Shown one piece after another: positions 43,214 through 58,864 of a DNA stretch of 64,000 nt. The notes beneath the pieces were generated by a model. It was not told the DNA's origin. It ran no database searches and was given only the letters and a program-made list of their open reading frames with translations. Position 1 is the first letter of the stretch. Each line of letters starts with the position of its first letter. The position numbers and the translations under genes are program-made. Origin of the DNA: an uncultured Ruminococcus sp. GTDB taxonomy: Bacteria; Bacillota; Clostridia; Oscillospirales; Ruminococcaceae. The stretch covers positions 1 to 64,000 of the forward strand of contig CANQWR010000005.1 in the NCBI GenBank assembly GCA_947627625.1. The letters are read 5' to 3'.

Positions 43214-44962
43214 TCAGTTTACACTTCTCTTTACATATGATGTGTGGAGAACCTTGTGAGCTTTTCTGCTGCCGGGTTTGCCGAAGAATGTCTCGTACAT
43301 CTCCTGAATAGCAGGATTCTCGTGAGACTGTCTGAGAGGCATAGAAGAGTCAAGGTCATAGAGAACCTTTGCTCTCTCTTTCCTGATGTCCGTGAAGTTT
43401 CTGACACTCATAGGAACCTGTGGCTGTCCACCGCCGTTTACGCAACCGCCCGGGCAAGCCATAATCTCTATGAACTGATAATCAGCTTCACCGCTCTTTA
43501 TCTTGTCAAGGACAATTCTTGCGTTTGCAAGTCCGCTGACTACCGCAACTTTAACCTCGACACCGCCTACATCATAAGTAGCTTCCTTGATGCCGTCCGT
43601 ACCTCTGAGTTTGTTGAGGTCTGTAACGTTCTCGCCTGTGAGTTCGTGAATAGCAGTCCTGAGAGCAGCTTCCATAACTCCGCCTGTCGCACCGAAGATA
43701 ACGCCTGCACCTGTCGAAATTCCGAGAGGTTCGTCAAATTTGTCGTCGGGGAGTGCGTGGAAATTGATTCCCGCACGCTCAATCATTCTGCCAAGTTCCC
43801 TCGTTGTGAGAGCGTAGTCAACATCGGGACAGCCCGCAGCGGCACTTTGGTCGTCACGTCCTATCTCAAACTTCTTTGCAGTACAGGGCATTATTGAGAC
43901 TACCACTATATTCTTGGGGTCAATGCCCATCTTTTCAGCGTAGTAAGTCTTAGCCGTTGCACCGAACATCTGCTGAGGTGATTTGCAAGTTGAGAGGTGG
44001 TCAATGAGGTCGGGGTAGTAGTGTTCACAGAATTTTACCCAACCTGGTGAACATGAAGTAATCATCGGGAGTACTCCGCTCTTGTATTTAAGTCTGTCGA
44101 TAAACTCGTGTGCTTCCTCCATGATGGTCAGGTCTGCACCGAAATCTGTGTCGAATACCTTGTCAAAACCGAGCTTGCGGAGAGCGGCAACCATCTTGCC
44201 CTCTACGTTCGTTCCGACAGGCAGACCAAAGCACTCGCCAAGTCCTGCACGGACTGCGGGAGCTGTCTGGACAAGGACTGTCTTTTCGGGATCTGCAATC
44301 GCTGCAAGGACTTCCTTTGTGTAGTCCTTTTCGGAAATTGCTCCCACGGGACAGACTGCTATACACTGTCCGCAAGATACACAACTGGTCTCACCGAGAC
44401 CCATGTCAAATGCAGAGCCGATAAAGGTCTTGAAACCTCTCTCGTTCGCACCGATTACGCCTATGCCCTGAGTGTTCGCACAGACCGCAACGCACCTGCG
44501 GCAGAGTACGCACTTGTTGTTGTCACGGTACATATGTGCAGCGGAGTTGTCAACTTCATAGATATTTCTCTCGCCGTCAAACACGCCTGCATCGTCAACA
44601 CCGTAATCCTTACAGAGTTTCTGAAGCTCACAGTTTCCGCTTCTCACGCATGACAGACACTTTCTGTCGTGTGTGGAGAGGATGAGTTCAATAGTCTTCT
44701 TCCTCGCCTCGATTACTTTCGGTGAACTTGTGAGTATCTCCATGTTGTTTGAACAGGGATACACGCACGCTGCGACAAGTCTGAAACCTCTGCCCTCGTT
44801 CACTTCGGTCACGCATATACGGCACGCACCTATCTCGTTTATCTCTTTCATATAGCAAAGGGTGGGGATCTCAATACCTGCCATATGTGCGGCTTCAAGA
44901 ACGGTAGTTCCCTTGGGTACGGAGATCTCAGAACCGTTTATTTTAACTGTAATATTTTCCAT
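43214..44962 (-). CDS. hydA: [FeFe] hydrogenase catalytic subunit HydA
   Basis: HydA makes or uses H2 and is the catalytic subunit of a trimeric, NAD- and ferredoxin-linked hydrogenase. The 582-residue protein has in order: a [2Fe-2S] domain (cysteines in IPTLCYMKEINEIGACRIC), the His-bound [4Fe-4S] (HDRKCLSC), two [4Fe-4S] clusters (CVLCRRCVAVC and CVSCGQCIAVCP), and the H-cluster motifs TSCSPGW, MPCTAKK and MACPGGCVNGGGQP. All ligands are intact. hydB lies 15 bases upstream. This family is known for electron bifurcation in R. albus and others. Confidence 0.97.
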   Translation of the reverse strand: MENITVKINGSEISVPKGTTVLEAAHMAGIEIPTLCYMKEINEIGACRICVTEVNEGRGFRLVAACVYPCSNNMEILTSSPKVIEARKKTIELILSTHDRKCLSCVRSGNCELQKLCKDYGVDDAGVFDGERNIYEVDNSAAHMYRDNNKCVLCRRCVAVCANTQGIGVIGANERGFKTFIGSAFDMGLGETSCVSCGQCIAVCPVGAISEKDYTKEVLAAIADPEKTVLVQTAPAVRAGLGECFGLPVGTNVEGKMVAALRKLGFDKVFDTDFGADLTIMEEAHEFIDRLKYKSGVLPMITSCSPGWVKFCEHYYPDLIDHLSTCKSPQQMFGATAKTYYAEKMGIDPKNIVVVSIMPCTAKKFEIGRDDQSAAAGCPDVDYALTTRELGRMIERAGINFHALPDDKFDEPLGISTGAGVIFGATGGVMEAALRTAIHELTGENVTDLNKLRGTDGIKEATYDVGGVEVKVAVVSGLANARIVLDKIKSGEADYQFIEIMACPGGCVNGGGQPQVPMSVRNFTDIRKERAKVLYDLDSSMPLRQSHENPAIQEMYETFFGKPGSRKAHKVLHTSYVKRSVN

Positions 44963-44977
44963 CAGTAATTCCTCCGC

Positions 44978-46879
44978 TTATTTCTTGATAATTGCCTTGA
45001 ACTTGCAGGTACCGATACAAGCACCGCACTTTATGCACTTATCCTTGTCGATTTTGAGTGCAGGCTTTTTCTTTCCGGGAGCAGTGTAGTCCGTAACGGA
45101 AATGGCACTTGCGGGACAGTGTTTAGCACACATCGTACAGCCAAAGCACTTGTCGGGGATAATTTCATAGCTGAGAAGGTCTTTGCAGACGCCTGCCGGA
45201 CACTTCTTGTCAACAACGTGAGCTATGTACTCATCTCTGAAACATTTGAGAGTTGAGAGAACGGGGTTGGGAGCAGTCTGTCCGAGACCACAGAGGGAGT
45301 TTGTCTTGATGTGGTAAGCAAGCTCTTCAAGTTTGTCTATGTCCTCAAGAGTACCCTTGCCCTTTGTTATCTTGTCCAGAATTTCAAGCATTCTCTTTGT
45401 TCCGACACGGCAAGGTGTGCACTTTCCGCATGACTCGTCAACGGTAAATTCAAGGAAGAACTTAGCTATATCGACCATACAGTTGTCTTCGTCCATAACG
45501 ATAAGTCCGCCCGAACCCATCATTGAACCTATGCTTATAAGGTTGTCATAGTCAATCGGAATGTCGAAATGCTCTGCGGGTATACATCCACCTGAAGGAC
45601 CGCCTGTCTGTGCAGCTTTGAACTTCTTGCCGTTCGGGATACCTCCGCCGATTTCCTCAACGACTTCACGGAGAGTTGTACCCATGGGAACTTCAACAAG
45701 TCCTGTGTTGTTTATCTTTCCGCCGAGTGCGAAAACTTTAGTACCCTTTGACTTTTCTGTACCCATTGATGCGAACCAGTCAGCACCGTTCAGGATGATC
45801 TGCGGAATATTTGCGTAAGTCTCAACGTTGTTGAGGACGGAGGGCTTTGCAAAAAGACCTTTTTCTGCGGGGAACGGAGGACGGGGACGGGGTTCGCCAC
45901 GGTTGCCCTCGATAGAGGTCATGAGAGCAGTCTCCTCACCGCACACAAATGCTCCTGCACCAAGTCTCAAATCTATGTCGAAATCAAAGCCTGTGCCGAA
46001 AATGTCCTTTCCGAGCATACCGTACTCACGAGCCTGCTGTATAGCGATATTCAGACGCTCAACGGCTATGGGGTACTCCGCACGCACATATATATAACCC
46101 TGTTTTGCACCGATTGCGTAACCTGCAATTGTCATAGCTTCAAGCACTACATGGGGGTCACCCTCAAGAACCGAACGGTCCATAAATGCACCCGGGTCGC
46201 CCTCATCGGCATTACAGCAGACATACTTCATATCGGCGTTGGGGACTATATTCCTTGCGAGTTTCCACTTCATACCTGTCGGGAATCCTGCACCGCCTCT
46301 GCCACGCAAACCCGAATCAAGTACGGTCTGGATAACCTCTTCGGGAGTCATCTCCGTGAGTACCTTTCCGAGAGCCTTGTAACCGTCTCTGCCTATGTAC
46401 TCCATAATATTTTCGGGGTTTATGACACCACAGTTTCTGAGAGCCACACGGTGCTGTTTTTTGTAGAAATTGGTCTCGTCAAGAGCCTTGATGTGGTCGC
46501 CCTCAACTGTCTCTTCGTAGAGAAATTCCTTTACGGGGTGTCCCTCTGCAAGGTGTTCTTTTACTATTCTGGGTATCTCGTTCACGTCAACACGGGAATA
46601 GAAAGAGCCTTCGGGATAGACAATCATTATAGGACCTCTCTCACAGAGTCCGAAACAGCCTGTCTTGACTATCTGGATTTTGTCCGAGAGATTATTTTTA
46701 GCGAGTTCCTCTTCGAGTTTCTCTATAATCTTCGGAGAGCCCGAGGAAGTACAGCCCGTACCTCCGCAGACGAGAACGTGTTTCTGGTATTTTGAACAGG
46801 CATCACTGCCGTGGGTTCTGAGAGCAACTTCGCTCTCCATTGATTCCTTGGCAACCCTGAGTTCTTCAAGAGTCTTCAT
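44978..46879 (-). CDS. hydB: bifurcating hydrogenase NADH-binding subunit HydB
   Basis: The 633-residue NuoF-like protein has an N-terminal thioredoxin-like [2Fe-2S] domain (CGGTGCTSSG and KTGCFGLCERGP), then the FMN/NADH region (GRGGAGFPTGMKW and GADWF). The [4Fe-4S] site CGKCTPCRVGTKRM follows, and a C-terminal pair of clusters (CFGCTMCAKHC, CIKCGACIGTCK). This full layout is that of HydB, where NAD(H) chemistry and branching of electrons occur. The gene lies between hydC and hydA. Confidence 0.97.
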   Translation of the reverse strand: MKTLEELRVAKESMESEVALRTHGSDACSKYQKHVLVCGGTGCTSSGSPKIIEKLEEELAKNNLSDKIQIVKTGCFGLCERGPIMIVYPEGSFYSRVDVNEIPRIVKEHLAEGHPVKEFLYEETVEGDHIKALDETNFYKKQHRVALRNCGVINPENIMEYIGRDGYKALGKVLTEMTPEEVIQTVLDSGLRGRGGAGFPTGMKWKLARNIVPNADMKYVCCNADEGDPGAFMDRSVLEGDPHVVLEAMTIAGYAIGAKQGYIYVRAEYPIAVERLNIAIQQAREYGMLGKDIFGTGFDFDIDLRLGAGAFVCGEETALMTSIEGNRGEPRPRPPFPAEKGLFAKPSVLNNVETYANIPQIILNGADWFASMGTEKSKGTKVFALGGKINNTGLVEVPMGTTLREVVEEIGGGIPNGKKFKAAQTGGPSGGCIPAEHFDIPIDYDNLISIGSMMGSGGLIVMDEDNCMVDIAKFFLEFTVDESCGKCTPCRVGTKRMLEILDKITKGKGTLEDIDKLEELAYHIKTNSLCGLGQTAPNPVLSTLKCFRDEYIAHVVDKKCPAGVCKDLLSYEIIPDKCFGCTMCAKHCPASAISVTDYTAPGKKKPALKIDKDKCIKCGACIGTCKFKAIIKK

Positions 46880-46894
46880 AAGTAACCTCCTATA

Positions 46895-47389
46895 TTAAGC
46901 GTATTTAGCGATAATCTTGTCAACATCGTCAACAGTCAGACGGCCGTAAACGTCCTCATTGACGGTGAGAACGGGAGCAAGTCCGCACGCACCTATGCAG
47001 CGGCACGCCTCAAGTGAGAACTTGCCGTCGGCAGTACACTCACCGCCCGCAATTCCGAGCATCTCCTGCAACTTGTCGTAAATATCGCCCGAGCCTTTTA
47101 CATAGCAGGCAGTACCGAGACAGACGGAAATTGTGTACTCACCCTTCGGGTAGAGGGAGAACTGGGCGTAAAAAGTGACAACGCCGTAGATTTTTTCGAG
47201 AGAAATTCCGGTTCTGTCGGAAATAATCTTCTGAACCTCGATTGGAAGGTAGCCGTAAATCTCCTGGGCTTTCTGGAGAATGGGCATGAGTGCACCCTGA
47301 CTGTCCTTTTTTTCCTCGACAAAGGCGACAAGCTGAGCTTCCTGCTCGGGAGTGCCCTTGAAGGGAACGGTTGATTTCGATGAATTCAT
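46895..47389 (-). CDS. hydC: hydrogenase subunit HydC (NuoE-like)
   Basis: The 164-residue protein is of the NuoE type. The thioredoxin-like [2Fe-2S] domain has cysteines in SVCLGTACYVKG and EACRCIGACGLAP. The N-terminus is helical (QEIYGYLPIEVQ), as in NuoE. It is the first gene of the operon. HydC passes electrons between HydB and HydA. The start follows AGGAGG with a 10-base spacer. Confidence 0.97.
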   Translation of the reverse strand: MNSSKSTVPFKGTPEQEAQLVAFVEEKKDSQGALMPILQKAQEIYGYLPIEVQKIISDRTGISLEKIYGVVTFYAQFSLYPKGEYTISVCLGTACYVKGSGDIYDKLQEMLGIAGGECTADGKFSLEACRCIGACGLAPVLTVNEDVYGRLTVDDVDKIIAKYA

Positions 47390-48817: not shown

Positions 48818-48869
48818 AAAATCTTCACCTTTTTCAAATTTTATTTTTTTGATGTCACAGTTTTGGAGT

Positions 48870-49070
48870 TGGGGGACTATCTCCCAATATTCCAAGAAAA
48901 TTAAAGCAGTAGAATTATCATGGGGGGTTCGGGGGGATTCTTCCCCCCGATGGGGGTTTGGGGGCAAAGCCCCCTGCCTCTTATACTCACGGCGGGGGTT
49001 CGGGGGTGCAACCCCCGACAGGGGTTTGAGACAAATCCCCCTGCCCATTATCGTTCCCTTAAAATAGGAA
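48870..49070. repeat. GC-rich modular hairpin repeat cluster (copy 6)
   Basis: Between ychF and the EAL gene lie the AT-rich head or tail (TTAAAGCAGTAGAATTATCA) and the hairpins GGGGGG-ATTCTT-CCCCCC, GGGGGC-AAA-GCCCCC and GGGGGTTGCACCCCC type, with the end CCCATTATCGTTCCC. No separate gene is present. Confidence 0.85.
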
Positions 49071-49083
49071 CAAAAAGTCTTAC

Positions 49084-51810
49084 TCACAGACGGTCGGAAA
49101 TTTTACCGTTTATCTCGGACAATATTTCACAGTTATTTAATTTGACTTTTCCCTGTGAGACTATTTCATTCGGGTTTCTCGACAGAATTTTCATTTTAAG
49201 TTCCGAATTTTCAACGGAAATATCACCGTCTCCCGATGTGTCACCTATAGCTGTGACGCTGTCGCCCTCCGCATCTATCTCTATATCCGCATTTTTTATC
49301 AGTGTAGAGAGGTGTCCGTCGGAAGTTCCCACGCAGACCTGTGTCGCACAGCGTGAGCGTATTTTGACATTTCCGCCGTCAATTATTATCTCTCCCGAAC
49401 CCTTTTCGGAAACTCCTATTCCCGTGCAGTGCGTGCAGGCAAACGCCATTGATATATTTGCAGAAGTGTCAAGGTAAAGTTCTCCGCTTTCGGAACCTAT
49501 CCCGACTGTCTTTGTGCCTGAGAGTACAATATCGAGATTGCAATCCTTATTTGCGGTTATGCGTGTGTCTCCCGAAACAGCACCTATTGCCGTTCCGTTC
49601 TTTGCGGAAACTCCGAGGGATATGTCTCCCGAAATAAGATTTATTTCGGACTCCCCTCCCCCGAAACCTCCTCCTATGCAGACGACACTGTCACCCGAAC
49701 AGGATATGTCAAGATTTCCCGTCATATTTACGGATATGTCACCGAAACCGCTGTCTGTGCTGTTGCCTATTCCTATGCCCGAGTTCTCCGACACGAGCGA
49801 GAGACTGCCCTTGCCCTTTATGGCAAGCTGACTTCCCGACGGAACGCATATCCCCGAACCCGACAGCTTGTTTGTCCTCGATATATCAAGAATAAGCCTT
49901 GCGTACTCCCCCACGCTTATGACGGGCTTTCCGTTCCCGCTTATTATGTTCGTGTTTTTCAGAGTTAGTTCACAGCTGTAGTTGTCCATTATGGATATGT
50001 TCATTTTGACAGGCTTCCTGACATCGCCGTATATTGTCAGTTTACTGCGGTAGACGTGTATATCCGTGTACCTCTCAAGTGCGAGTTTCAGAATATCTAT
50101 CTCACTGTCACTTCTTGCACTGTATATCTTCCTGCCCGATTTTCGGGAGTCAAGATTTATATTTATTATCTCGTCCCTGACTTCCGTGGGAATGCTCTCC
50201 TGTATGGACGGTGACGGCTTTGAAATATAGAACCCCTGAACAAAATCTGCACCAAGTCTTATTACCGTGCGGAGTTCGGGGGAGGTCTCCACACCGACGG
50301 CAATGCACTGTATTCTGTTGTCGTGGCAAAATTCAGTAATCTGTGCAAAAAACTGCTGTTTTTTTGAGTCGGAATCTATCCCCGATATGAGACAGCGGTC
50401 CACTTTTACATAGTCGGGCTTGTACCTCAGAAGATTTGATATATTTGAACGTCCTGCACCGAAATTGTCCACCGCAAGGCGTGAACCCATTATCCCCGCA
50501 CGCTTTTTTATATTTGATATGTTTTCGGACGGTGATACGTCACTGCTCTCTGTTATCTCGGAGACGACGTTCTCCAGAAAACTGCCGTATTTCACATATA
50601 GTTCATTGAAATCATCGTCTGTGAGAGTGTACTCCGACATTGAATTTATAAACAGCTTCTTTGGACCGAAAATCTCCCGATTGTCCTCAATTATGCGTGC
50701 CGAGTTGAAAAAAGTGAGTTTTTCGATACTGTACAGAATATTCTGACGGCGTGCAATTGATAAAATTTCTCTGGGAGATATTTTCACGTCCCCTGAAACT
50801 CTCATCAGAAGTTCATAGCCGTAGACTTCCCCCGAAACTGCATCGACAATCGGCTGAAAACAGTACGACAGGAGATTGTCGTGGATAATTTTGGAGAATA
50901 TCTGTGTCTTTCTGTAGGAGTCCTTCTCACGCAGATAGTTCTTCTCCGAAAACCAGTTCACACAGCTGTGTCTTCTCGTGCGTGCCTCGTAGAGTGCGAA
51001 ACCCGAATAGCTGACAAAAGTGTTGAAATCACGGGCATCGTCGGGGTAACAGCAACAGCCTGCCGACAGACTGAGACTGCATTTATCCGATATGTCTATG
51101 ACTTCCCCGAAGTCATCGGTGAGAACGCACTCCCTGACTGCTGAATCCATATCAGTCAAAAGATTTGTCACATATCTCCTGTCGCAGTCCGTGAACATCA
51201 CAAATATCTCCGTCCCCGACTTTGAACCCATTATGACGTTCTCCCCCGAAAAGGACTTTATAAGATTGCAGACGGACGTTATACACTCGTTTACCGTGTC
51301 CACCGACAGGAACGAACTTAGCTTGTCAATGCCGTTTATGCAGACCGATGCGAGAAAACAGCACGTCATTTCGGGCAGAAGTTTCTTTACTTTTTTTGAA
51401 AAAGCCGTGTAGGACGGCAGTCTCATAATCGGTTCATACTCCTCATCGGTCTGTCTCATGCCCGCCTCGGACAGCTGTCTTGTGAAGTCCTGAACGAATC
51501 CGAGCCATCGCCCCGAACTCTCATATATATTCATTTTTATAAATCTGACGGAAAAGCCGTCCGAAATCGTGTATATGTGTTCGTGCCCCTCGGCAGGACT
51601 CCCCGAAATCTTTTCAAGGAGGTTAAAAAATTCAAATTCACTGAGAGTATTTTTCCTGCACGAGAGCATATGCGTGGCGGTATCATCAAAATAGGCGGTC
51701 TTGTACTCCGAAGAGTAGGTGAAAACGCCTATACTGCCGTAAAATTTCTGGAATATTTTCCAGTCTCCGCTTATTTCGGGCGGTCTTTTAGAAAAATCAA
51801 AAATACTCAT
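49084..51810 (-). CDS. degenerate GGDEF-EAL protein with beta-solenoid-like tail
   Basis: The 908-residue, soluble product has an N-terminal PAS-like region (about 15-110), a GGDEF-like domain (about 125-290) with SGTEI in place of GGDEF, and an EAL domain (about 303-545). In the EAL domain the first motif (ELLMR), the Asn in INS and the EITE set are kept. The DD pair is DN (448-449) and the catalytic EGVE is VGVE. Residues 600-905 form a tail with a VxIG/AIG motif near 679, 712, 742, 771, 798, 827 and 855, a repeat of 27-33 residues. It has no signal peptide or membrane helix. It could bind c-di-GMP without degrading it. Confidence 0.82.
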   Translation of the reverse strand: MSIFDFSKRPPEISGDWKIFQKFYGSIGVFTYSSEYKTAYFDDTATHMLSCRKNTLSEFEFFNLLEKISGSPAEGHEHIYTISDGFSVRFIKMNIYESSGRWLGFVQDFTRQLSEAGMRQTDEEYEPIMRLPSYTAFSKKVKKLLPEMTCCFLASVCINGIDKLSSFLSVDTVNECITSVCNLIKSFSGENVIMGSKSGTEIFVMFTDCDRRYVTNLLTDMDSAVRECVLTDDFGEVIDISDKCSLSLSAGCCCYPDDARDFNTFVSYSGFALYEARTRRHSCVNWFSEKNYLREKDSYRKTQIFSKIIHDNLLSYCFQPIVDAVSGEVYGYELLMRVSGDVKISPREILSIARRQNILYSIEKLTFFNSARIIEDNREIFGPKKLFINSMSEYTLTDDDFNELYVKYGSFLENVVSEITESSDVSPSENISNIKKRAGIMGSRLAVDNFGAGRSNISNLLRYKPDYVKVDRCLISGIDSDSKKQQFFAQITEFCHDNRIQCIAVGVETSPELRTVIRLGADFVQGFYISKPSPSIQESIPTEVRDEIININLDSRKSGRKIYSARSDSEIDILKLALERYTDIHVYRSKLTIYGDVRKPVKMNISIMDNYSCELTLKNTNIISGNGKPVISVGEYARLILDISRTNKLSGSGICVPSGSQLAIKGKGSLSLVSENSGIGIGNSTDSGFGDISVNMTGNLDISCSGDSVVCIGGGFGGGESEINLISGDISLGVSAKNGTAIGAVSGDTRITANKDCNLDIVLSGTKTVGIGSESGELYLDTSANISMAFACTHCTGIGVSEKGSGEIIIDGGNVKIRSRCATQVCVGTSDGHLSTLIKNADIEIDAEGDSVTAIGDTSGDGDISVENSELKMKILSRNPNEIVSQGKVKLNNCEILSEINGKISDRL

Positions 51811-51848: not shown

Positions 51849-51877
51849 ATTATAACTCACAATTTTTACAAAGTCAA
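51849..51877 (-). promoter_or_regulatory. promoter of the EAL/beta-solenoid gene
   Basis: TTGACT, 17 bases, TATAAT on the minus strand, about 38 bases upstream of the ATG. It indicates a single-gene unit. Confidence 0.82.
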
Positions 51878-52842: not shown

Positions 52843-55158
52843 ATGTCAGAACAGAAAATTTCAGTGAACGAACCCGATGAACTCTCCGCACCCTCAGACG
52901 GTGAAAAAGCCAATGCGGACAGCAATAAAAAATATATCCCGCTCGGTCTGTCGGACGACAGGGTGACTATGACAAACCCCGAAGATATTGGTGAAATGCG
53001 TTCGGGGAACTCCGTAAAGCCCGATGAGTCCGATTTGTACGACTTCTTTTCCGATGACAGTCTCCCGCAGATAAGGAGAATGAGCAACTCCACAAGGGCA
53101 AGAGAGGCTGAGGCTATGAAGAAAAACAGGAAAAAGAAAAAGCGTACGGTCTCTACAAATATTCCCTATGAGAAAGATACTCCCGACGGTGAATATATGT
53201 TTTCCCCGCCGAAGTTCAAAAAGAAAAAGCGTTCAAGAAAAAAGATAATTCAGGAAGCCGAAAGCCCCGAGGGCAGAAAAAATATAACGGACATTGTTCC
53301 TGCTCCGCCAAGAGAAGACACTAAAAAAAGCGGTGAGAGCGTAAAAACCGAAACCGAAGGCGTTACCGAAAAAAAGTCCGCAAAAAGGCGTATAGTCGAC
53401 TTCAACTATTACGGTGATGTTGAGGACGTCGGTCTCGATATAACGGAGCTGAAAAGTATTCTCTCGTCAAGAGTTATCCTCCTGACCTGCATTTTTATTT
53501 TCAGTTTCTATGTGACGGTCTGCAACCAGTTTGGTCTCGGAATAGTCGGCATACTCGACAAAAATGTCAATATATACGGTTTTTTGGGTGCAAATCTTCT
53601 GACAGGCATTCTCGCTATGGCTCTGTCCGCACCCGTCATATCAAAGGGAGCAAAAAACCTTGTGAAATTCAGGTCTGACGGGGATTCAATGTCCGCACTC
53701 TCCGCAATATCATGTGTAATCGGCAATATATCCGCATTTTTCAGCCCCGAAATGGCTATGTCGGACGTTATTCAGGTCTTCACGACAGTGGGGATAATGT
53801 CACTCCTGACAAATGCCGTCGGGAAACTCCTGATTTTAAGGCGTGCCGACAGAAATTTTGACTTTGTGTCGGAAAATTCGGGGAGATACGGCGTTGTCTA
53901 TGTAAAGGACGAAGAGCGTGCGGAACGTCTTACAAGGGGTGCTGTGGGGGATTTTCCAATACTGTGTGCCATGAAAAAGACCGACTTTATGACGGATTTT
54001 CTCAAATATACATACTCGGCGGACTTGGCTGATTCATACTGCAAATCGGCTGTACCGCTGTGTCTTATCGTTTCTGTGTTAGTCTCCTGCCTGCTGTCCT
54101 TTATGAGAATGGGCACACTCCTCTCGGCGGACTCCGTGGCTTTCGGTTTTTCAATATACACAATGTTCATATCCGCCTGTTCCTGTATAGGACTGCCCTT
54201 TGCGGTAAACGTACCTCTTGAAAGAGTATCCGCAAAGACGCTCCGGAATGGCGGTATAATGCTCGGATACCAGAGTGTGGACGATTTATATGACGTGAAC
54301 TCGGTTCTTATTGATGCGGGAAAAATTTTCCCCGACGGCTCTGTGAGTGTCTCTGCCGTAAAAATATTCTCAAATATAAAAACGGACGAAGCTATGCTCG
54401 AAGCCGCAAGTCTCGCCCACGCCGCAGGGAGTATAGTCTACCAGATATTCAGTGACGTTGTTGCGGACAGTCTCGGCACTCTCTACAACGTCGACAACTT
54501 CTCCCTTGAGGAAAACGGCGGTTTTTGCGGTTGGATAAACAACAAGCGTGTACTCCTCGGCGGTCGTGAACTCATGAGCAGTCACAACATAGAGGGTGTC
54601 CCCACAAAGTCAAAAGAGGCGGAATATGCGGCATCTTGTCAGGAAGTTTTATATCTGTCCGTTTCGGGAAACCTCGCTGCTATGTTCATAATAGACGTTA
54701 AAGCGGACAGGGGCGTTAAAAACTGGATTCAGAAACTCAGCAGGAACAGGGTGTCAGTCATAATAAAGAGTACCGACAGTTTCCTGACCGCAAAGAAAAT
54801 ATCAAGACTTTTCTACATTCCGCAGGAACACGTCAGGATAATTCCCATGAAACTCCACGAAGATTTTGACGAGGAGACTAAGGACACCGTGAGACTTAGT
54901 GCGTCAATGGCTTGTTCGGGCAAATTCACCTCCCTTGCACAGCTTATAACGGGTACTAAAATTATACACTCCTCAGCCGTTGCAGGTCTCATCTGTCAGA
55001 CAGTCTCAATATTCATAGGTCTCGGAATATCACTTCTGCTGATACTCTCAAAGGCTTTTGAGTCCGATTATATCTATATGTCATCGTCCGCAATGATACT
55101 CTACCAGCTCATCTGTACCTTTATGACCATTGTGGCGGTGAGTCTGAAAAAACTCTGA
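52843..55158 (+). CDS. P1B-type ATPase homologue lacking catalytic motifs
   Basis: The 771-residue product has a charged, likely disordered N-terminus of about 205 residues rich in Lys and Glu, followed by a P1B-type ATPase layout. Membrane helices lie around 208-262 and 400-455. The CPC motif is changed to CSC (446-448), the phosphorylation site is DAGKIFPDG (from 491) instead of DKTGTLT, and the TGD motif reads STD near 643. The GDGxND hinge is missing. The N-domain-like WINNKRVLLGG and the final helix pair remain. It cannot form the phospho-enzyme and is probably a pseudo-transporter or scaffold. It lies 13 bases after rlmB. Confidence 0.8.
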   Translation: MSEQKISVNEPDELSAPSDGEKANADSNKKYIPLGLSDDRVTMTNPEDIGEMRSGNSVKPDESDLYDFFSDDSLPQIRRMSNSTRAREAEAMKKNRKKKKRTVSTNIPYEKDTPDGEYMFSPPKFKKKKRSRKKIIQEAESPEGRKNITDIVPAPPREDTKKSGESVKTETEGVTEKKSAKRRIVDFNYYGDVEDVGLDITELKSILSSRVILLTCIFIFSFYVTVCNQFGLGIVGILDKNVNIYGFLGANLLTGILAMALSAPVISKGAKNLVKFRSDGDSMSALSAISCVIGNISAFFSPEMAMSDVIQVFTTVGIMSLLTNAVGKLLILRRADRNFDFVSENSGRYGVVYVKDEERAERLTRGAVGDFPILCAMKKTDFMTDFLKYTYSADLADSYCKSAVPLCLIVSVLVSCLLSFMRMGTLLSADSVAFGFSIYTMFISACSCIGLPFAVNVPLERVSAKTLRNGGIMLGYQSVDDLYDVNSVLIDAGKIFPDGSVSVSAVKIFSNIKTDEAMLEAASLAHAAGSIVYQIFSDVVADSLGTLYNVDNFSLEENGGFCGWINNKRVLLGGRELMSSHNIEGVPTKSKEAEYAASCQEVLYLSVSGNLAAMFIIDVKADRGVKNWIQKLSRNRVSVIIKSTDSFLTAKKISRLFYIPQEHVRIIPMKLHEDFDEETKDTVRLSASMACSGKFTSLAQLITGTKIIHSSAVAGLICQTVSIFIGLGISLLLILSKAFESDYIYMSSSAMILYQLICTFMTIVAVSLKKL

Positions 55159-56867: not shown

Positions 56868-57430
56868 ACAGTGGGGGCGGGGGTGGAGTTCCTTGTGGGA
56901 GTTCAGGGAGGCAAGGTCCCCTGCTATTTATCGTTCCCTCCGTGGGAATAATTATGGGGGGTCTGGGGGGATTCTTCCCCCCAGCGGGGTCAAGGGGCGG
57001 AGCCCCTTGTGGGGGTTCAGGGGGCAAAGCCCCCTGCCCCTTATCGTTCCTAAAATAATTTATACTGCCTTACGGCATTGGGATTTGGGGGGCGTTGCCC
57101 CCCAAGCCCCCCACCAAAGGGGCAAAGCCCCTTTGGAAACCCATAATTAAATATTTTTAGTTGTGCGACTATTCAAGTTTTTGTTTATCATGGGAGTGTC
57201 TCCCCTATTCCTGATTGTTTCTTCTGTGGAATAATCATGGGGGGTTCGGGGGGACGGAGTCCCCCAGTGGGGGTTCAGGGGGCAAAGCCCCCTGCCCCTA
57301 ATAGTTCCAATTAAAATTTGCACAGCCCCCAAAAGTCCACAAGCCAAAGAATTTTCTAAAAAAATATAATTTTAATAAAATTATTTTTTGGACAAAGCCC
57401 CCTGCCTCCTATCGTTCCAATTAAAATTTG
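56868..57430. repeat. GC-rich modular hairpin repeat cluster (copies 7 and 8)
   Basis: This is the largest array. At least two full units and one partial unit lie between the LCP gene and the transglutaminase-dockerin gene. Features include GGGGGC-AAA-GCCCCC hairpins with CCCCTTATCGTTC tags, the complement of the AT-rich head seen at copy 4 (CCTAAAATAATTTATACTGC), GGGGGG-ATTCTT-CCCCCC hairpins, and CATGGGGGGTTCGGGG starts. No gene fits. Confidence 0.88.
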
Positions 57431-57544
57431 CACGAAATCCCCAACAGGAGTTCGGGAGCGTCTCAAATCGTTCACATAAAAAGTCTAAATAAAAAATTCA
57501 AATTTATAGATAAAGGGGAAAATATATTGACGGAGGTATGTTTT

Positions 57545-58864
57545 ATGAAAAACATCACAAAAAATCTCGTAGCTTTAGCCGTTGCCCTTGCGGTGTGTCC
57601 CGTGGGGGAGTGCCTCGGCACGTCCGCTGAAGATTCGCTCTTTGAGTACGGTTCTGTTGATTTGTCCGATATGGTAATGTTCTCGGACGAACTGACAGAT
57701 AATTCGTCCCAAACGGCAATACTCGCAAATTACAGCGACAATGCACACAATTTCGGCTACTATCTCGATGAAAACAATGTTGAGGTCTACAAAAAATTTA
57801 TGACGCTTGTAAACCCCTCTGACGAAAATTTCACGATAACTCTCCCCGAACCCGTCAGCTTTGAAGTGTCCTCACTGCCGAACTCTCCCGATTTTTCCGA
57901 AGAAGATATGAACTCTCTCAGGACTGCCGTTTTCTCAAGCTGTAAGCCCGGCTTTGACTCCGCTCTTTTCGACATTCCCGATATTTTCTGGCTCGATGAC
58001 ACGGGAATAGGTGTTGCAATAGGCAATATGACCTATCAGAGAAATAAAAAATACAACACTTATACCTGTACCGTAAAATCCCTGACTTTCAGTATCTCCC
58101 CGCTTGACAGCTTTGAATCTGTAGAGGAAATAGCGGAGTATAAAACTATTCTCAGCAATGCCGTGAACAGTTTCAGCCCACAGGGTGAGACAAGGTACGA
58201 AATGCTCATGAATATTCATGACCGCATGGCTCAGGATACTTTTTACAGCCTTGACGGAAAATTTTCAGGCTCTGCACTAAGTGTCCTCGCTGACGACACA
58301 GGTGCGGTCTGTGAGGGTTACTCAAAGGCTTTCAAACTCATGTGCGACACCCTCGACATACCGTGTGTACTCGTTTTCGGAAACTATGATGAGGAAAAAA
58401 ATACTGCACATATGTGGGATTACGTCATGATGGAGGACGGGAACTGGTACGCTGTCGACCTGACGTGGGATGACCTCGACGGCAAGGACGGTCTCGAATA
58501 TCAGCACGACTATTTTCTGAAAGGTTCGGAGAGTTTCAACACAAATCACACCCCCGAACCGAATTACGGTCTGACATACCTGACATATCCCGAACTGTCC
58601 GAAAAAGACTACTCCCCCGTGTCGGGAACTGTCACGACCGAACCCGTTACCGAAACTGCACCGACAACTTCATCTCAGGAAACTCCCGTCACTGTTATAG
58701 GCGACATAAACAGGGACGGCTCTATAAATACTGCCGACCTTGTAACCATTTCAAAAGTCCTCTTTGGACTGTCTGAACAGACTGACGACTGCGACATAAA
58801 CGGCGACTCCCGCTGTGATGTCTTTGACCTCACGGCTCTCCGACAGATTATAATTTCAATCTGA
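57545..58864 (+). CDS. secreted transglutaminase-like protein with dockerin
   Basis: The 439-residue protein has a signal peptide (about 1-28), a long N-terminal region without a known domain, and a transglutaminase-like core with Cys256 (GAVCEGYSKAF), His289 (HMWDYV) and Asp305 (VDLTWDD). A Thr-rich linker follows, and a C-terminal dockerin (386-439) with loops DINRDGSINTAD and DINGDSRCDVFD. Transglutaminase-like folds act as crosslinkers or peptidases. The dockerin suggests attachment to a cohesin on the cell surface. A GGAGG site marks the ATG. A longer frame has no support. Confidence 0.88.
   Translation: MKNITKNLVALAVALAVCPVGECLGTSAEDSLFEYGSVDLSDMVMFSDELTDNSSQTAILANYSDNAHNFGYYLDENNVEVYKKFMTLVNPSDENFTITLPEPVSFEVSSLPNSPDFSEEDMNSLRTAVFSSCKPGFDSALFDIPDIFWLDDTGIGVAIGNMTYQRNKKYNTYTCTVKSLTFSISPLDSFESVEEIAEYKTILSNAVNSFSPQGETRYEMLMNIHDRMAQDTFYSLDGKFSGSALSVLADDTGAVCEGYSKAFKLMCDTLDIPCVLVFGNYDEEKNTAHMWDYVMMEDGNWYAVDLTWDDLDGKDGLEYQHDYFLKGSESFNTNHTPEPNYGLTYLTYPELSEKDYSPVSGTVTTEPVTETAPTTSSQETPVTVIGDINRDGSINTADLVTISKVLFGLSEQTDDCDINGDSRCDVFDLTALRQIIISI

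Follow-up and report, generated by a model that had tools for sequence, protein, structure and literature searches.

The systems that come closest to the protein described here are those in which a GGDEF and an EAL domain are joined, such as FimX, LapD and proteins of the PA0861/RbdA type, for none of which we know of a C-terminal beta-helix. FimX and LapD have in addition lost the catalytic residues of the EAL domain, which most of the proteins considered below have kept. YkuI of Bacillus subtilis (2bas, 2w27), which was matched by Foldseek, also continues from its EAL domain into a C-terminal domain, but this domain is PAS-like and not a beta-helix. Bactofilins, MinC and SufB/SufD have right-handed beta-helices with a cytosolic function; they are not fused to c-di-GMP domains and can be likened to our protein by fold alone. 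The preliminary description of this locus had proposed a soluble c-di-GMP-binding protein with an intracellular solenoid as a new type. No EAL or GGDEF protein with a beta-helix or solenoid tail was found in open-access full texts (subscription papers and preprints lay outside this search). For the intracellular beta-helix as such, the cytosolic proteins listed above are precedents. We give slightly better than even credence to the view that the locus belongs to a family of cytosolic proteins built of a sensor, an EAL domain and a beta-solenoid, and that in this particular copy the EAL domain has lapsed, leaving a c-di-GMP receptor or scaffold that acts through the solenoid.

The window (the whole stretch of 64,000 nucleotides that was analysed) comes from an uncultured rumen bacterium within the Ruminococcus flavefaciens group, whose assembly measures 2.04 Mb and is 87% complete (G000). 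Eleven GGDEF and five EAL domains pass the cut-off in this genome, and therefore a c-di-GMP metabolism exists to be sensed. The minus strand of the window contains an open reading frame of 908 codons (51810..49084) that begins with ATG and is translated without internal stops. The gene, its parts and the next gene downstream are as follows:

49084..51810, minus strand: PAS-like / degenerate GGDEF / EAL / predicted beta-solenoid protein, 908 aa (open reading frame, translation)
51466..51810, minus strand: putative PAS-like N-terminal domain, residues 1-115 (order of secondary structure elements in the model; PA0861 alignment)
50947..51453, minus strand: degenerate GGDEF domain, residues 120-288 (site SGTEI at 51205-51219)
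50203..50913, minus strand: EAL domain, residues 300-536 (N449 at 50464-50466, V505 at 50296-50298)
50041..50190, minus strand: helix and strand between EAL domain and solenoid, a predicted N-terminal cap, residues 541-590 (secondary structure, model of EAL plus tail; gap data)
49087..50040, minus strand: predicted right-handed beta-helix, residues 591-908
51849..51877, minus strand: promoter-like site (11 matches out of 12), some 40 bases 5' of the start codon
47729..48817, minus strand: YchF, next gene downstream on the same strand (Pfam)

The promoter evidence is weak, since the region contains eight such sites where 5.3 are expected. Pfam recognizes the EAL domain at residues 307-532 (E 9.5e-49), while the GGDEF domain at residues 172-280 stays below the threshold (E 0.019, 15.1 bits against a cut-off of 23.8). 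The model of the full-length protein is poor overall (pLDDT 73, pTM 0.43); PA0861, a PAS-GGDEF-EAL protein, aligns to it with E 5.3e-19 and an rmsd of 19.9, a value that is large because the domain arrangement differs. For residues 1-115 no Pfam match was obtained at E 0.01, so that we infer a PAS-like domain there from the model and from this alignment.

Orthologues of the protein are present in all 35 same-genus genomes searched; 31 of them align from residue 1 to at least residue 901 at 50-57% identity, and four align over a part only. Within the family to which the host belongs, the profile of the tail matched strongly (E <1e-60) in 61 of 297 genomes and at E 0.001 in 68, the other seven being partial, repeat-type matches. 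At the level of the order, matches were found in 18 of 394 genomes, all within the host's family, plus six weak ones outside it; at the level of the class, the 18 matching genomes of 391 comprised four from the host's family, nine with strong matches from two other families (f52 and f67), and five with partial matches to repeat proteins. Because relatives, nearly all of them intact-looking in their catalytic residues, occur in other gut-type Clostridia, the protein seems to be a member of an undescribed signalling family. In a tree of 90 representatives calculated by a quick method, 61 sequences of the PAS-GGDEF type form one clade, and 29 LacI-type and short sequences the other. The N-termini were assigned by Pfam in single examples: L035 combines a Peripla_BP_3/LacI domain (E 3.5e-34) with EAL, L209 combines GGDEF with EAL, L046 (704 aa) has EAL only, as do L139 and L193 within the part of the sequence covered; the LacI-type part of the f52 and f67 proteins is a by-eye call from partial open reading frames. 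The neighbours of B-type paralogues at L045 5272-8001, L042 2-1516 and L035 968-3307 are an open reading frame with GH10, GH11 and deacetylase domains, another protein of the LacI type and one that combines GAF, GGDEF and EAL.

The N-termini vary. The junction between the EAL domain and the tail is nearly constant. The tail and EAL profiles together detect 181 open reading frames, in which the two are separated by four residues in 141 cases, three in 23, five in 14 and another number in three. A tail scoring above 60 bits without EAL was encountered in three open reading frames, of which two are halves of split genes (L041, L049) and one is open at the contig edge (L220); secreted relatives of the tail, discussed below, score under 60 bits and are not part of this count. 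An intact solenoid was never encountered without a preceding EAL domain, and in this set the pairing is obligate. The two split paralogues belong to one genome (G015); in each the break separates the EAL part from the tail, through a stop codon in one case and a frame change in the other.

According to the preliminary description, the tail begins at residue 600 and has the look of a right-handed beta-solenoid with an IG motif every 27-33 residues. We modelled the solenoid both within the full protein and within residues 300-908. When residues 631-900 of the full-length model are divided into 27 ten-residue blocks, 24 of these have a mean pLDDT of at least 88; in the model of EAL plus tail (pLDDT 92.4, pTM 0.84; 91.0-92.4 among five models) the tail blocks range from 85 to 98. 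The tail, with regular coils of parallel strands, is accordingly predicted to be a right-handed beta-helix, as had been proposed, although it starts near residue 585 and not at 600. The model further suggests that the arrangement of EAL domain and solenoid is fixed; a fold search with residues 300-908 returned a match list filled by the EAL domain. The proposed periodicity survives as regards spacing but not as regards counts: the number of IG dipeptides in residues 600-908 is ordinary (seven against a shuffled mean of 5.2, matched by 509 of 2000 shuffles), and a plain autocorrelation is likewise unremarkable, be it for G, for IG or for hydrophobic residues, but a chain of seven [IVL]G dipeptides at steps of 27-31 residues arises only once in 5000 shuffles (11 times when steps of 26-34 are permitted). 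An alignment of 39 tails has 11 invariant columns, every one of them Gly, and polar residues of the tail are hardly conserved across the family, so that none marks a docking site. The window tail has no accepted Pfam family up to E 10 (the sole match, DUF6758 with E 0.22, is a chance one), the best match of the 39 tails to Pfam and NCBIfam has E 0.016, and sequence searches of the PDB gave no match for the window tail and one match each for the tail profiles (E 0.072 and 0.58). The possibility that the tail is a known catalytic domain, which had been named as a potential refutation, was rejected on the basis of these sequence searches, and the solenoid is without a model in Pfam or NCBIfam.

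A possible origin of this module is suggested by the tail profile, which extends to secreted proteins with beta-helix repeats (lowest E 3.2e-17, obtained in G602); the match is collinear over about 160 residues, with a high compositional bias and with E-values that are relative to four sequences only. Three of these four proteins pass the cut-off of PF18889 (Beta_helix_3), while L203 fails it; the window tail does not match the same Pfam model up to E 10, nor do the 39 tails up to E 0.1. The secreted proteins (e.g. L203, L211, L213) share with the tail the segment N-x-L..GIxVP..S..L..G.GSL and GIG turns, but they differ from it in being long repeat proteins, in the absence of EAL and, where the N-terminus is visible (L211, L240), in a hydrophobic leader. 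Judging from these resemblances, the tail appears to be a surface-type beta-helix fold used intracellularly. The Cthe_2159 carbohydrate-binding lipoproteins (PF14262) are likewise of the beta-helix type, but they have lipoprotein-like N-termini, and the similarity lies below accepted cut-offs: none of 39 tails exceeds the Pfam threshold, two of 39 match at all with E 0.025 at best, and the profile-profile comparison gives a probability of 36% over 91 columns. Membership of the tail in that family was rejected on these grounds. Cthe_2159-type proteins with lipoprotein-like N-termini (L159-L173) are present in all 40 same-genus genomes in which they were sought.

It is tempting to regard the solenoid as an intracellular carbohydrate-binding module, which would tether the EAL protein to a stored or imported polysaccharide (e.g. 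glycogen) and thereby tie c-di-GMP to the carbon state of the cell. Besides the similarity to secreted beta-helix repeats, this idea can draw on the polygalacturonases and AlgE6 among the structural neighbours, on the paralogue located beside the GH10-GH11-deacetylase gene and on the LacI-type sugar-binding domain of the B-type protein L035. We nevertheless consider it unlikely, as the window tail has eight aromatic residues and no Trp among 322 residues, the tail alignment is devoid of invariant residues of the catalytic type, and the match to Cthe_2159 is not acceptable. The solenoid is most likely, we infer, a partner-docking or allosteric arm.

The substitutions on which the preliminary description was based are all present. 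The GGDEF site reads S-G-T-E-I (198-202), which does not conform to the GG[DE]EF pattern of diguanylate cyclases, and it is degenerate in all 30 orthologues examined, the 29 others reading SNYEI or similar. In the EAL domain, D448-N449 replaces DD and V505-G-V-E508 replaces EGVE, of which E505, the first Glu, is the catalytic base; moreover, ELL stands in place of the EAL motif, and R454 in loop 6 corresponds to Y in the orthologues. The substrate-side residues E333, N389, E418, K469 and Q525 are retained. The window protein thus has the EAL fold but not the complete catalytic set. Among the 30 orthologues, E333, E418, D448, K469, E508 and Q525 are conserved in 30, N389 and E505 in 29, and D449 in 28, and of the 141 distinct EAL-solenoid proteins, 139 are intact at all nine positions, the two exceptions being the window protein (N449, V505) and L029 (S389, N449). 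D449N and E505V are therefore almost private to the window species. Loss of the EGVE glutamate is used to call EAL domains inactive in PMC12900916, which agrees with the earlier suggestion that phosphodiesterase activity is unlikely as far as this copy is concerned. As a general property of this type of protein, inactivity is ruled out by the 139 intact sets, and from these it follows that the window copy is likely a pseudo-enzyme, a lapsed member of a family in which an EAL domain, probably a c-di-GMP phosphodiesterase, is joined to a cytosolic solenoid. Degeneracy of both catalytic sites, as in receptors of the FimX/LapD kind, is found in the window protein and not in its family.

One may ask whether the window protein has just been decaying since it lost its activity, has no specific role, and leaves only its orthologues of interest. 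The two lost catalytic residues, the changes in the EAL motif and loop 6, and a long branch (0.68 substitutions per site against 0.34 for L133) would fit such a scenario, but the frame is intact across 908 codons and the species is deep-branching anyway (mean identity of its YchF to the others 81.8%, against 86.3% for that of L133). The ratios of branch lengths between the window sequence and L133 are 2.02 for EAL, 1.17 for the tail, 1.36 for PAS, 1.41 for GGDEF and 1.33 for YchF, so that tail and PAS have evolved no faster than YchF when measured against L133, and we regard decay as quite improbable. While these branch lengths hint at relaxed constraint on the window EAL domain, counts of lost conserved sites do not support it (Fisher p 0.21 for EAL against the tail, 1.0 against YchF, 0.37 pooled), and we do not claim a relaxation confined to EAL. 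It is very doubtful that the EAL domain is still an active phosphodiesterase by virtue of an altered site: six of eight classic catalytic positions are kept, but the catalytic base has changed from Glu to Val and a metal-ligand Asp to Asn, and the published rule (PMC12900916) classes such domains as inactive.

With respect to cellular location, no 19-residue stretch of the window protein exceeds 1.6 on the Kyte-Doolittle scale (maximum 1.36), and the same is true of 30 of 30 orthologues, all of which begin with M[SG]IF; for this reason an alternative start adds no export signal. The lack of a signal peptide or membrane helix noted earlier thus stands, and together with the degenerate GGDEF and EAL domains and the solenoid tail it upholds the notion of a soluble protein. 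Among the 43 proteins from groups A, B and C none has a membrane-like stretch, as opposed to five of five GGDEF-EAL sensors without the tail taken for comparison. Two further family members go over the limit: L138/L225 does so marginally (1.82), at a place within its GGDEF-like region, and L147, the one membrane-anchored relative encountered, has two hydrophobic stretches at the N-terminus, preceding EAL, which would return EAL and solenoid to the cytosolic side. These observations support a soluble window protein whose solenoid presumably resides inside the cell. Export, with the solenoid acting at the surface like its secreted relatives, is hardly credible given the absence of signal or membrane stretches from the 43 proteins, the cytosolic ligands of EAL and sensor domains, and the probable topology of L147.

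In the reading that we prefer, i.e. a cytosolic sensor-EAL-solenoid family with a lapsed copy in the window, the phosphodiesterase of most members would be controlled by whichever module stands at the N-terminus (PAS-like, of the LacI type that binds sugars, or another), and the solenoid, rigid against the C-terminal end of EAL, would dock a cytosolic partner or relay the conformational state. Intact members may cut c-di-GMP near whatever the solenoid arm holds. In the window species, where the phosphodiesterase would have lapsed, the EAL domain probably only binds the nucleotide, and the protein may serve as a receptor or scaffold working through an unchanged solenoid. The window protein most likely binds c-di-GMP without cutting it; the parallel for binding is FimX, which has degenerate GGDEF and EAL domains and binds c-di-GMP with a KD of about 90 nM (PMC5595344). 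It is also conceivable, although we put this forward tentatively, that a secreted-type beta-helix was moved to the cytosol and fixed to EAL as a novel type of c-di-GMP output, with EAL, whether active or lapsed, setting the state of the solenoid as a rigid scaffold, which would recruit or assemble partners, and with different sensors, including those for sugars, sharing the same arm. There is no simple link to flagella: of the 61 genomes of the family in which the tail profile matches strongly, 26 have flagellin, as does none of five same-genus genomes drawn, and in the same-genus genomes flagella are not the target because all five lack flagellin.

If our interpretation is true, a large group of EAL proteins from fibre-degrading Clostridia of gut and rumen is added to the c-di-GMP field, with a C-terminal module beyond Pfam and NCBIfam that adjoins EAL in everything examined here. 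They would offer a testable route to the use of c-di-GMP in mostly unstudied bacteria and an example of cytosolic signalling that employs a beta-helix fold of the surface type, for which the window copy would be a natural inactive variant to set against intact orthologues.

Of 247 candidate stretches, 113 encoded a relative, and the best 80 of these 113 were kept as named loci (76 labelled Ruminococcus, one each Anaerotruncus and Clostridiales, two Alistipes). The ychF gene comes next on the same strand in 75 of these best 80, and in 57 of these 75 the gap does not exceed 110 bases. Among the remaining five, four stretches stop less than or at 160 bases past the gene, and L119 continues for about 790 bases without a ychF match. 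This adjacency may be plain synteny, and no open-access literature pairing YchF with c-di-GMP was found. The gene was unmatched in a search of a plasmid collection. In the window the gap to ychF is about 266 bases, and this stretch (48818-49083) resembles positions 7726-7926 of L050, which lies elsewhere in this genome (42% across 57 residues in translation); it is perhaps a dispersed repeat. Just past ychF lies a three-gene set for an Fe-only hydrogenase (large subunit, NuoF-like and NuoE-like; 43214-47389, minus strand). On the plus strand, a gene at 52843-55158, situated between those for an rRNA methylase (SpoU) and a LytR-CpsA-Psr protein, encodes a protein of 771 aa that contains several hydrophobic stretches and matches nothing in Pfam at E 0.01, and another at 57428-58864 encodes a transglutaminase-like domain with a type I dockerin, likely a part of the cellulosome.
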